Shown: piece by piece, positions 5,518 through 9,250 of the stretch
Position numbering within the stretch: the first letter of the stretch is position 1
Layout of the letters: each line of letters opens with the position of its first letter
IMG/VR virus record: IMGVR_UViG_3300021375_002114
Location: 1-53,702 of that record
Length of the DNA: 53,702 bases
DNA from: a virus
Reading direction: 5' to 3' (one strand)
Made by a program: the position numbers and the translations under genes
The notes under the pieces: generated by a model
The model's database searches: none
What the model saw: the letters and a program-made list of their open reading frames with translations, nothing else
Told to the model about the DNA's origin: nothing

Positions 5518-6348
5518 ATGACACAACTAATAGACCCAAGCAAATTTACCGAGACAGTTGGCCTTTTAAGGTCATTTTTTTTGGAAAAAGGATTTCTTGA
5601 AGTACACACACAAAACAGATTGAGCATACTAGCCGCATGTGAAGATCCATTCAATGTAGCAACCTACAATTATGCAGGCCAAGTATGGCCACTACCGCAA
5701 ACCGGCCAGATGTGGTTGGAACATGAATTACTAAGTCAGCCCTCAGCAAAGGGCTTTTTTTGTGTCTCTACATCCTACAGACAAGAGCCTAATGCAATAC
5801 CAGGTAGACATGATATAATATTTCCAATGTTTGAATTTGAAATGCCAGGAAACGTAGATGACCTAAAAGCAATGGAGTATGAACTATGTGAATACCTAGG
5901 CTTTGGCAACATTACAGAAAAGACCTATGCTGAATGGCAACAACACTTTGGACTCGGTGCTGACGTAGAAATGGAAGCGGAACACGAACTAAAGATGGAA
6001 GAAGAGTTTGGTCAAACACTTATTACCAACTTTCCTGAACTAACTTCACCTTTCTGGAACATGGCTAGAAACGATGACGGAAATACAGCAAAGAAGATGG
6101 ACGTTATACTAGGTGGCATGGAAACTATTGGATCAGCAGAACGCTCATGTGATGTTGATATGATGCGTGATACATTCCATAGCATTGTAGATGGAGAGTA
6201 CGCAGAGTTGCTATTCAAACTATTTGGTAAGGAAAGAGTTGAAGCAGAACTAGAAAAGTTCTTAGAATTTGACTTCTTTCAAAGAGTAGGCGGAGGCATA
6301 GGTGTAACACGTATGATCCCTGCACTAGAAAAAATCAACAAGGTATAA
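5518..6348 (+). CDS. Class II aaRS core protein, AsnA/AsnRS-like
   Basis: 276-residue protein with a class IIb aminoacyl-tRNA-synthetase catalytic core and no N-terminal anticodon-binding OB domain. Motif 2 is SYRQE (86-90, R88 and E90) followed by GRHD and FEFEMPG. The amino-acid pocket region has GGMETIGSAERS (199-210), and motif 3 is GGGIGVTR (258-265). This size and domain content match archaeal-type asparagine synthetase A, a paralogue of AsnRS that makes asparagine from aspartate and ammonia; an active tRNA-charging enzyme cannot be excluded. The next feature, 6 bases downstream, is a tRNA with the Asn anticodon GTT, which makes the pairing notable. RBS AAAGGAAAC precedes the ATG. Confidence 0.78.
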   Translation: MTQLIDPSKFTETVGLLRSFFLEKGFLEVHTQNRLSILAACEDPFNVATYNYAGQVWPLPQTGQMWLEHELLSQPSAKGFFCVSTSYRQEPNAIPGRHDIIFPMFEFEMPGNVDDLKAMEYELCEYLGFGNITEKTYAEWQQHFGLGADVEMEAEHELKMEEEFGQTLITNFPELTSPFWNMARNDDGNTAKKMDVILGGMETIGSAERSCDVDMMRDTFHSIVDGEYAELLFKLFGKERVEAELEKFLEFDFFQRVGGGIGVTRMIPALEKINKV

Positions 6349-6354
6349 GAATAA

Positions 6355-6457
6355 TCTGGGGTGGTGAAATTGGTAAACACGCACGGCTGTTAACCGTGTG
6401 GTTGAATGTACTGCAATATATTTAACCTTGTAGGTTCGAATCCTACCCCCGGAGCCA
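6355..6457 (+). tRNA. tRNA with GTT (Asn) anticodon and class II long variable arm
   Basis: A complete 103-nt cloverleaf with encoded CCA. Acceptor 6355-6361 pairs with 6447-6453, the discriminator is G6454 and CCA is 6455-6457. The D arm is GTG/CAC (6364-6366/6378-6380) with the loop AAATTGGTAAA. The anticodon stem is CACGG/CCGTG with loop CTGTTAA, giving anticodon GTT. The T arm is GTAGG/CCTAC with TTCGAAT. The variable region (6399-6429, 31 nt) can form an 11-bp helix, 6400-6410 with 6417-6427, with two G-U pairs. Acceptor U1-A72 and G73 look Asn-like, while the D arm and long variable arm look Leu-like. Confidence 0.9.
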
Positions 6458-6476: not shown

Positions 6477-8387
6477 ATGAAAAATGTCTATCTCGCACAG
6501 GTTCCTTTTTGTGTACAAGAAAATATGCCAGTTTACTTTCCTTATAGTGCAGGATTACTGTGGAGCTATGCACAACAGTTCAAAGAAATAAACCAATACT
6601 ATCAACTCAAGGATATAATATTCCTGCGAGAAGACCCAGATGAGGTTGTGGCAAAACTTGAAAATCCAGATGTTTTTGGATTAAGTTGTTACGTATGGAA
6701 TATGCGATACAATGCAGTAATTGCACAAAAAGTAAAAAACAAATTTCCGCATTGTAAGATCATTGTCGGCGGTCCGCATGTTTCTGCAAACGATGTAGAC
6801 TTATTTAAAAAACATAGTTACTATGACATAGCAGTGTTTAGTGAAGGCGAACTGTTGTTTAAGGAAGTGCTTGAGAATCTACACGATGATCAAAAACTAC
6901 AAGAAGTCAAAGGTATTGGTATTAACCAAAATGGGTACATGAAAAAAACAGGCATGGGTAAGAGAACAGAAAAACTAGATGATATTCCAAGTCCGTATTT
7001 ACTAGGATTGTTCGAAGGCATGAAAGAACAATGTGAACAAAAAGGCATTAGTAGCATTAATGGATTATTTGAATCTAACCGAGGTTGTCCGTACTCATGT
7101 ACATTTTGCGACTGGGGGAATGGTGTTCTTGGAAAAGTAAAAAAATATGATATGCGTAGAGTAAAAAAAGAACTGTTGTGGTTTGCTAAAAATAAAATTG
7201 AATATATTTTAAACTGTGATGCAAATTGGGGAATCTTTGCTGACAGAGACTTAGAACTTACAAAGTTTATGTGTAAACTAAAACGCAGGTACGGATATCC
7301 TAAAATTTTTGATACCAATTGGGCAAAACACAGTAGTAATAAAGTAGTAGATATGGCTAAACTTTTCTTAGAACAAGATATGCTCAAACGTTTTACTGCA
7401 AGTATACAAAGTAGTAATCCTGATAGTTTGAAAGCAATCAAAAGAAAAAATCTACCTGAAGAAAAGGCAACTGCAATTATAGATTATGCAAGAGAAATGA
7501 ATATACATACAAATGTAGAACTTATTATTGGATTGCCACTTGATACATACGAAGATTTCAGAGATACTTTTATGAGCTATATGTTAAATGGAGCATATCC
7601 ATCAGTTGGTGTCCTTACTATTTTGCCTAGCAGTGAAATGGCTCATCCTGAATACAGGAAAAAATATGGAATGAAAACACAAATAAACACTAAGAAAAGT
7701 ACTCATGTGGACGAAGAGGACGAGTTAGTAATAGAAACAAACACAATGCCTAAAGCCAAAACCGAAAAACTAATATTGTTCTGTTGGTTTGTTGCTCAAT
7801 GGCATTTTCAAGGATATACAAACATTATTGCTGAATTTTTTGCAAAAAAATATAATACAAGTCTACACGTTTTTTATGAAACCTTAATAGACTTGATGTG
7901 TGTAGAAAAACAAACAATGCCTAATAAAGTAATATCTCCATACAAGAATCATATCGACAAACAAATTACTGCAGAATTAGATTTAGGAGCACAAAATCTT
8001 CCCTTTCATCAGTTAATCGGGCACGATCAACGATTTGAAACCTATGCTGGATTAAAAGAAATTGTTAAGCAAATGTTACCAGTAGACGATTTAGTCTACC
8101 TTGATGATCTATTGCATTTACAAGAAGCCTCACAGTTCAACTTGTATAGGTCAAAAGAATTTCACATTAATTTATCTTGTTCCTTACATGAATACATCAA
8201 TGGTAATCAAATACTAGAACATGGCGATTTCTGTTATAAAATCACACAAGATGAAACTGTACCACGCAATTTTGGTGAATTTATGGTACAAAATCGATGG
8301 AGTGGCAAATGGAAAAATCACATAGAATCTTACAACCGCAACCTGCGTAGTAATTATTATGCTAAAAACAACCTTATACCGGCCTGA
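6477..8387 (+). CDS. B12-binding-type radical SAM protein
   Basis: 636-residue enzyme. Residues 1-140 form a Rossmann-like cobalamin-binding-type domain (IIVGGPHVSAN near 96-106; GEGE-like FSEGELLFKE). The radical SAM core follows with GCPYSCTFC, cysteines 204, 208 and 211 for the 4Fe-4S cluster. No DxHxxG lower-ligand motif is obvious, so cobalamin would be bound without histidine or may be lost. The C-terminal 200 residues are unassigned. Relatives carry out methylations or rearrangements; the substrate is unknown. The ATG sits 5 bases after a late-type motif and opens the first strand of the domain, so I keep it. It overlaps the next radical SAM gene by 1 base. Confidence 0.82.
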   Translation: MKNVYLAQVPFCVQENMPVYFPYSAGLLWSYAQQFKEINQYYQLKDIIFLREDPDEVVAKLENPDVFGLSCYVWNMRYNAVIAQKVKNKFPHCKIIVGGPHVSANDVDLFKKHSYYDIAVFSEGELLFKEVLENLHDDQKLQEVKGIGINQNGYMKKTGMGKRTEKLDDIPSPYLLGLFEGMKEQCEQKGISSINGLFESNRGCPYSCTFCDWGNGVLGKVKKYDMRRVKKELLWFAKNKIEYILNCDANWGIFADRDLELTKFMCKLKRRYGYPKIFDTNWAKHSSNKVVDMAKLFLEQDMLKRFTASIQSSNPDSLKAIKRKNLPEEKATAIIDYAREMNIHTNVELIIGLPLDTYEDFRDTFMSYMLNGAYPSVGVLTILPSSEMAHPEYRKKYGMKTQINTKKSTHVDEEDELVIETNTMPKAKTEKLILFCWFVAQWHFQGYTNIIAEFFAKKYNTSLHVFYETLIDLMCVEKQTMPNKVISPYKNHIDKQITAELDLGAQNLPFHQLIGHDQRFETYAGLKEIVKQMLPVDDLVYLDDLLHLQEASQFNLYRSKEFHINLSCSLHEYINGNQILEHGDFCYKITQDETVPRNFGEFMVQNRWSGKWKNHIESYNRNLRSNYYAKNNLIPA

Positions 8388-9250
8388 TGCGTCTTATACT
8401 TCCATTTGTTGAAACCATGATAACCTATGCTTGTAATCTTAGTTGTACAGGTTGTACAAACTATAGTGATTACAACATGAAAGGCAGTGTGCGTTGGACA
8501 CAAGGCAAGGAATGGATAAACGCATGGATGGAACGTATTGACATAGAAGACTTTGGAATAATGGGCGGCGAACCAACATTGAATCCAGAATGTGAACAGT
8601 GGATTTACGGAGTACGCTCTTTGTTACCTAACAGTCGTATTAGATTTACAACCAATGGAGTTAATTTTCTTAAAAAACCTGAAGTATTTGACTGGTGTGT
8701 TGACGTTGGAAACACAGTGTTTAAGTTTTCACTTCATGAAGACAAAACTTATGGCATGGATGCGATAAACTATGTGTTTAACAAGTACAAGTTTACACCA
8801 ATAACCGAGTATGGTATTAACCGTTGGCTTGGTCCAAACAACACACGTTTTCAAATCAATTCGCCTTTACAATTTTTTAAAACTTATAAAGGAACGTTTG
8901 GAAATATACAACCACATAACAATAATGCAAAAGATGCATTTGATATATGCGTACAACAAAATTGTTCACTGTTATATGAAGGCAAAATTTATAAATGCAG
9001 TAGCATTGCATTGTTAAAAAAAGTGTTATCTGACTGGAGACAACCCATCACAGATTCATGGAAGCCATACACTGACTACGAAGCAATATCTGTAAATAGT
9101 TCAGATAAAACTATTAGACAGTTCATACAAAACTGTACCAAGCCACATAAAATTTGTACCATGTGTCCAACTGTGAAGGACACAGGTAGTATCATTGATC
9201 ACAAAACAAATGTAATATCAAAAAAGCAGTGGATTAAATTAAATTCTTGA
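8387..9250 (+). CDS. Radical SAM protein with auxiliary cysteine cluster
   Basis: 287-residue radical SAM enzyme. YACNLSCTGC (cysteines 16, 20 and 23) binds the 4Fe-4S cluster, and GIMGGEPTLNP is the SAM-binding GGE region. Late cysteines in QQNCSLLYEGKIYKCSS and ICTMCP look like a twitch/SPASM auxiliary-cluster domain. It overlaps the B12-type radical SAM gene by one base, so the two are probably made together. It closely resembles the gene at 31188 in layout (shared EGK/KGK-YKC segment). Substrate unknown; SPASM/twitch proteins modify peptides, sugars or nucleosides. Confidence 0.83.
   Translation: MRLILPFVETMITYACNLSCTGCTNYSDYNMKGSVRWTQGKEWINAWMERIDIEDFGIMGGEPTLNPECEQWIYGVRSLLPNSRIRFTTNGVNFLKKPEVFDWCVDVGNTVFKFSLHEDKTYGMDAINYVFNKYKFTPITEYGINRWLGPNNTRFQINSPLQFFKTYKGTFGNIQPHNNNAKDAFDICVQQNCSLLYEGKIYKCSSIALLKKVLSDWRQPITDSWKPYTDYEAISVNSSDKTIRQFIQNCTKPHKICTMCPTVKDTGSIIDHKTNVISKKQWIKLNS

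Follow-up and report, generated by a model that had tools for sequence, protein, structure and literature searches.

Phage tRNAs are usually thought to be served by the synthetases of the host. To our knowledge, no bacterial tRNA-Asn combines a class II shape with asparagine identity elements, and we know of no dedicated tRNA gene beside archaeal AS-AR or EpmA/GenX, which have a class IIb core without an anticodon domain. In the canonical system (TIGR00457; E. coli AsnS), the 466-aa AsnRS carries an anticodon-binding OB domain, and its tRNA-Asn is a class I molecule with a variable region of 4-5 nt. G73 and the GUU anticodon are known asparagine identity elements, and U1-A72 is that of GatCAB (PMC9976931). 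Class II bodies with the anticodon of another amino acid are found among allo-tRNAs and nematode nev-tRNAs, which receive serine or leucine and lack a synthetase of their own. Phage tRNAs with mutated anticodon-loop positions have been described and proposed to evade nucleases (PMC10264068); host nucleases are known in that case, and neither a synthetase partner nor a long-armed Asn body was reported.

The closest described counterparts of the locus studied here are in the Prochlorococcus phages P-SSM2, P-SSM5 and P-SSM7, which have the same pair of genes: an enzyme with 66-68% identity and, directly behind it, a class II tRNA of 85-86 nt. The two genes are annotated separately as 'tRNA ligase' and tRNA-Asn, and the ligase appears as T4-GC 194 in Sullivan et al. 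2010, with no function or pairing proposed there (PMC3037559). In the P-SSM2 record (NC_006883.2), the tRNA-Asn gene PSSM2_199 is annotated at 164094-164179, whereas its sequence actually lies at 162083-162168 (L082 3814-3899), right behind the ligase; the annotation, about 2 kb off, is apparently an uncorrected coordinate. For P-SSM2, one tRNA in all is reported. No paper linking the enzyme and tRNA genes was found in openly licensed PMC text. The parts are of known kinds; in the literature that could be searched, no description was found of a class II tRNA-Asn paired with a minimal AsnRS-like enzyme dedicated to it.

Here, we analysed such a pair in a window of 53,702 nucleotides, the whole of IMG/VR virus record IMGVR_UViG_3300021375_002114 (Table 1). 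The tRNA is the only one found in the window. Rfam RF00005 matches positions 6355-6454 with 55.1 bits (E 3e-9; gathering threshold 29 bits) and the encoded CCA follows directly at 6455-6457, so the coordinates given by the initial annotation are exact. ARAGORN did not call this tRNA, but does call the shorter-armed tRNAs of P-SSM2 and P-SSM7, both of which, unlike the window tRNA, have no encoded CCA. The minimum free energy structure computed with RNAfold is a full cloverleaf with an 11-bp arm (-36.2 kcal/mol), in agreement with the perfect fold and the arm helix that had been read from the sequence. By direct reading, the tRNA has the anticodon GTT, T1-A72 and G73 of tRNA-Asn but, at odds with class I, a variable region of 31 nt; U33 and A37 are both kept, giving a canonical anticodon loop. 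The body shows Leu-type features in the D arm, A14 A15 and U48, and the A15-U48 pair and arm layout are those of tRNA-Leu, whose discriminator A73 is absent: all linked tRNAs on the enzyme tree described below have G73. The chimera proposed in the initial annotation, in which a Leu-type body carries the anticodon and acceptor end of tRNA-Asn, stands. Its 7/5 geometry and Asn acceptor elements set it apart from allo-tRNAs and nev-tRNAs.

Table 1. Enzyme and tRNA features in the window.
Feature	Positions	Strand	Evidence
Class IIb aminoacyl-tRNA synthetase catalytic core, 276 aa, AsnRS-like, without N-terminal OB anticodon-binding domain	5518-6348	+	Pfam, PHROG, AF2, fold match, dN/dS
Gap between stop codon and tRNA, 6 nt	6349-6354	+	4-10 nt in nearly all close relatives
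Class II tRNA, anticodon GTT (tRNA-Asn type), encoded CCA	6355-6457	+	RF00005 55.1 bits; MFE cloverleaf
Acceptor stem 5' strand UCUGGGG, pairs with 6447-6453, U1-A72	6355-6361	+	U1-A72 in 94/94 close relatives
Leu-type D arm GUGAAAUUGGUAAACAC: 3-bp stem, A14 A15, G18 G19	6364-6380	+	Sequence; invariant columns in relatives
Anticodon arm CACGG CUGUUAA CCGUG; anticodon GUU at 6389-6391	6382-6398	+	Sequence; position tallies
Variable region, 31 nt; 11-bp helix 6400-6410 / 6417-6427 with 6-nt loop; U48 at 6429	6399-6429	+	RNAfold
T arm GUAGG UUCGAAU CCUAC	6430-6446	+	Sequence
Acceptor stem 3' strand CCCCGGA and discriminator G73	6447-6454	+	Sequence; G73 unchanged on tree of 183 enzymes

The protein encoded upstream matches Pfam PF00152 (D/K/N class II synthetase domain, 8e-16) and, over residues 1-271, PHROG 29758 (435.7 bits), to which PHROGs assigns no function; its family is the T4-GC 194 'tRNA ligase' of P-SSM2 and P-SSM7. 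Using its AlphaFold2 model (pLDDT 91.7), the best fold matches among solved structures are AsnRS of human (Z 27.9), Brugia (27.2), Pyrococcus (26.8) and Thermus (26.7), followed by AspRS (25.8), EpmA/GenX (23.9) and AS-AR (23.7), with rows within 1 Z counted as ties. The entire protein aligns with the catalytic domain alone, such as residues 242-530 of human AsnRS, and the OB anticodon-binding domain is therefore absent. Class IIb motifs 2 and 3 are present, and R88, E90, H98, E106, E108 and R265 are invariant in the family. The pocket signatures, GQxxxE / QxxLE and RH...E.E, are AsnRS-type rather than AspRS-type (SPQLxKQ and D): the family has PQTGQMWLE and RHDIIFPMFEFE, AsnRS has SQLYLE / SGQLNGE and RHLAEFWMLEPE, and AspRS has SPQLxKQ and EFTQIDVE. 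NCBIfam models of AsnRS, ND-AspRS and archaeal asparagine synthetase match weakly, an order of magnitude under their cut-offs; for example, TIGR00457 gives 38.4 bits against an equivalog cut-off of 342.6, and PRK06462 (archaeal asparagine synthetase A) gives 20 bits against 322-389. With dN/dS of 0.04-0.14, the gene is under purifying selection. Taken from the model and the pocket, its product is probably a minimal AsnRS-like catalytic core, and we infer that its amino acid is asparagine. In contrast to AS-AR and EpmA/GenX, with which it shares the core-only architecture, it has a dedicated tRNA alongside.

The enzyme and tRNA genes are one unit in hundreds of marine phage contigs. Searching by the enzyme alone returned at least 599 viral stretches; 77 of the best 80 had room downstream, and a GUU long-armed tRNA stood directly behind the enzyme in 75 of these 77, including five tRNAs below the scan's acceptor-stem cut-off that were read by eye. 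Searching by the tRNA pattern alone, the enzyme was directly upstream in all 97 cases with upstream room, in a set that overlaps in part with the enzyme-found one, some contigs being found both ways. The surroundings are not conserved in this manner: at 57 loci the enzymes fell into 1 DNA cluster, the 1.2-kb upstream stretches into 21 and the downstream stretches into 11. Across 183 loci, the most frequent other neighbour family occurred at 26, and no conserved third gene near the pair was found among neighbour families. In the window, the pair is followed at 6477-9250 by two radical SAM genes; the product of one has a B12-binding domain. One relative has a glnA-leader glutamine riboswitch (RF01739; L201 6132-6191) about 70 nt behind the tRNA. 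In another, from a MAG contig (L202, about 5857-5895), only two acceptor halves lie behind the enzyme (TCCGGGG-T-CCCCCGGAGCCA), which gives the appearance of a deletion of the tRNA interior but may be an assembly artefact.

The long arm is a conserved helix of variable length. In 94 distinct homologues, the arm helix averages 6.35 bp compared with 0.66 bp in 500 shuffles (maximum 0.99), and nearly every arm pair position shows several Watson-Crick pair types, that is, compensatory change. The variable region spans 12-39 nt in these close relatives and 11-39 nt in the wider set, except for two distant relatives (L407 and L420) in which a tRNA with a Leu-type body, Asn ends and a 6-nt variable region lies directly downstream of the enzyme; their long arm appears to have been secondarily lost. 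That the extra arm is an intron, an outcome which the initial annotation said would overturn its reading, is rejected, as close relatives have no spliced class I form at this site and the arm shows the covariation of a helix. A pseudogene is ruled out by the compensatory changes together with the frozen identity positions. The initial annotation also suggested recognition by the neighbouring AsnRS-like protein. Its tie to that protein is borne out by linkage in almost every close relative, but the giant arm does not serve well as the recognition element: among enzymes of about 90% identity, the accompanying arm ranges from 13 to 31 nt, and because arm length switches between near-identical enzymes and falls to 6 nt in two relatives, the arm tip is unlikely to be recognized.

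U33 and a purine at position 37, which is present in essentially all decoding tRNAs, are anticodon-loop bases normally needed for decoding. GUU, U1-A72 and G73 are found in 94 of 94 distinct close relatives, while position 37 is a pyrimidine in 73 of them. When distant relatives are included (148 distinct tRNAs), position 37 is U in 112, A in 26, C in 6 and G in 4, so that purine 37 is absent in 118, with the window copy and 25 others keeping A37; position 33 is U in 123, A in 17, C in 6 and G in 2, a loss of U33 in 25. Positions 34-36 are GUU in 144 of the 148, and the other four comprise two GUC tRNAs, a likely false match (L386) and an unrelated tRNA (L350). Since Fisher p-values for the comparison with the other tRNAs of these contigs, given below, ignore relatedness, we relied on a FastTree tree of 183 enzymes with parsimony counts of tRNA changes. 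There, positions 1, 34, 35 and 73 change zero times, position 72 once and position 36 twice, the zeros at 34, 35 and 73 being partly by construction as rows were filtered for G34-U35 and G73, a filter that dropped only a handful of tRNAs according to the 148-tRNA tallies. At position 37 the count is at least 27, mostly changes to U and about as many as at ordinary anticodon-stem positions (29-31 changes); at position 33 it is at least 11, with U33 lost to A, C or G. Charging determinants are thus conserved while ordinary decoding features drift. Neither this drift nor the missing anticodon-binding domain of the enzyme had been pointed out in the initial annotation. Under strict structural criteria that leave positions 33 and 37 unconstrained, all 83 other tRNAs of the same contigs have U33 and purine 37, whereas 23 of 137 linked tRNAs are without U33 and 113 of 137 have pyrimidine 37. 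Four loci (L378, L380, L387 and L394) have a GUC (Asp) anticodon directly downstream of an unchanged AsnRS-like enzyme; these tRNAs have a different class II body, with D arm UGCGAAUUUGGUAUAGCA, and U33 and G37. The same kind of body occurs at L381, L382 and L412, but with C33-GUU-U37.

Beyond close phage relatives, the enzyme extends further than the long-armed tRNA. The core-only enzyme also occurs in MAG contigs (L199-L228) of Bacteroidota, Patescibacteria, Chlamydiae and archaea. In bacterial and archaeal relatives of 44-66% identity, some of whose contigs are long (Chlamydia, 1.24 Mb), no long-armed tRNA was found near the enzyme. Nor did the best matches of tRNA model R1 in their genomes include a long-armed tRNA-Asn; they were mostly tRNA-Leu, also tRNA-Ser, and in one case an ordinary tRNA-Asn. 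In the most divergent of the cellular relatives (L227 5001-6092, 44% identity), a tRNA-Asn of ordinary class I type lies 204 nt downstream of the enzyme. We considered whether the cellular core-only enzyme replaces a missing AsnRS and rejected this, as a complete AsnRS is encoded elsewhere in most of the genomes checked. Among viruses, LR756501 and LR756508, both huge phages, encode the enzyme and also ordinary tRNA-Asn genes but no full AsnRS, some long phage records encode the enzyme but contain no matching tRNA (L402, 202 kb), and the distant huge-phage query L085 found no viral relatives.

What does the pair do? The reading we lean towards, with a confidence that falls just short of even, is a phage two-gene cassette in which the 276-aa catalytic core would attach asparagine to the tRNA encoded directly behind it, a tRNA-Leu-type body bearing the Asn acceptor end and GUU anticodon. 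This would supply Asn-tRNA for translation without host AsnRS, ND-AspRS/GatCAB or intact host tRNA-Asn, and the foreign body and altered anticodon loop may let it escape host tRNA-targeting defences; by analogy with the nuclease-evading phage tRNAs, the evasion of anticodon-loop cleavage raised in the initial annotation is possible. In its favour count the linkage in both directions in unrelated neighbourhoods, the AsnRS-like fold and pocket, the low dN/dS, the frozen identity positions, and the ordinary tRNA-Asn genes in enzyme-bearing huge phages. The enzyme, which lacks an anticodon-binding domain, would not as the charging enzyme account for the frozen GUU; decoding would, but the loss of U33 and purine 37 is then hard to understand, and the GUC loci and the enzymes without such a tRNA, in L402 and in Bacteroidota, Chlamydiae and Patescibacteria, also count against it. 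Dedicated tRNAs of cell-wall or natural-product pathways donate amino acids off the ribosome, and a charged tRNA that delivers asparagine to a non-ribosomal acceptor, widespread in marine phages, is a serious contender although we consider it probably not the case. Charging in such a system could be by the phage enzyme or by a host AsnRS/ND-AspRS reading GU[U/C]. Positions 33 and 37 would drift because the tRNA is not decoded, the 83 other tRNAs of the same contigs keep both bases, identity positions stay frozen on the enzyme tree, and GUC variants beside the same enzyme pose less of a problem if the anticodon is never decoded. On the other hand, 17 pair- or enzyme-bearing phage records contain no FemAB (PF02388) or GNAT-type PF13480 protein, a conserved third neighbour is missing, and the window copy is among the tRNAs that keep A37. 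Furthermore, some protein would have to read the frozen GUU, and the architecture of the phage enzyme does not obviously provide for this. Supply for translation is slightly favoured over the non-decoding donor.

Two other readings are much less likely than either of these. The enzyme may be an asparagine synthetase like archaeal AS-AR beside which the tRNA lies incidentally, as its core-only architecture, the weak PRK06462 matches and the distant cellular relatives without such a tRNA could suggest; yet a linkage found in 97/97 and 75/77 cases while the neighbourhoods are shuffled is hardly incidental, the pocket is AsnRS-type and model scores of 20-28 bits stand against cut-offs of 322-389, which makes it very unlikely. 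Very unlikely, too, is a role in misreading, a purpose that the initial annotation had entertained; in this reading the host would charge the linked tRNA with serine or leucine and Asn codons would be misread, as with allo-tRNAs and nev-tRNAs. The Leu-type body, A15-U48 and long arm would fit; tRNA-Leu can acquire serine identity when A73 is changed to G73 (PMC9976931), serylation is known for allo-tRNAs with sense anticodons (PMC7609411), and nematode nev-tRNAs are leucylated in vitro (PMC4300185). Against this, U1-A72, G73 and GUU are frozen, a dedicated AsnRS-like enzyme adjoins, and arm length varies between 6 and 39 nt. LeuRS depends crucially on A73, which none of the linked tRNAs has, and G73 speaks against the leucine identity described for E. 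coli (PMC9976931). Least probable is a decoy that baits a host anticodon nuclease or toxin reading G34-U35 and needs no charging: G34 and U35 are indeed the most frozen loop positions, but the linked synthetase, the frozen U1-A72 and G73 and the encoded CCA would be left unexplained.

A phage tRNA that travels with its own stripped-down synthetase departs from the view that such tRNAs are served by the host. U33 and purine 37 have been lost repeatedly while the determinants of charging stayed frozen, a natural experiment that separates charging from decoding, and the family may be a source of a small and possibly orthogonal AsnRS-like/tRNA pair for use in synthetic biology. If the tRNA is instead a donor, it would be a viral tRNA selected for aminoacylation rather than decoding, in an asparagine-donor system outside the ribosome.
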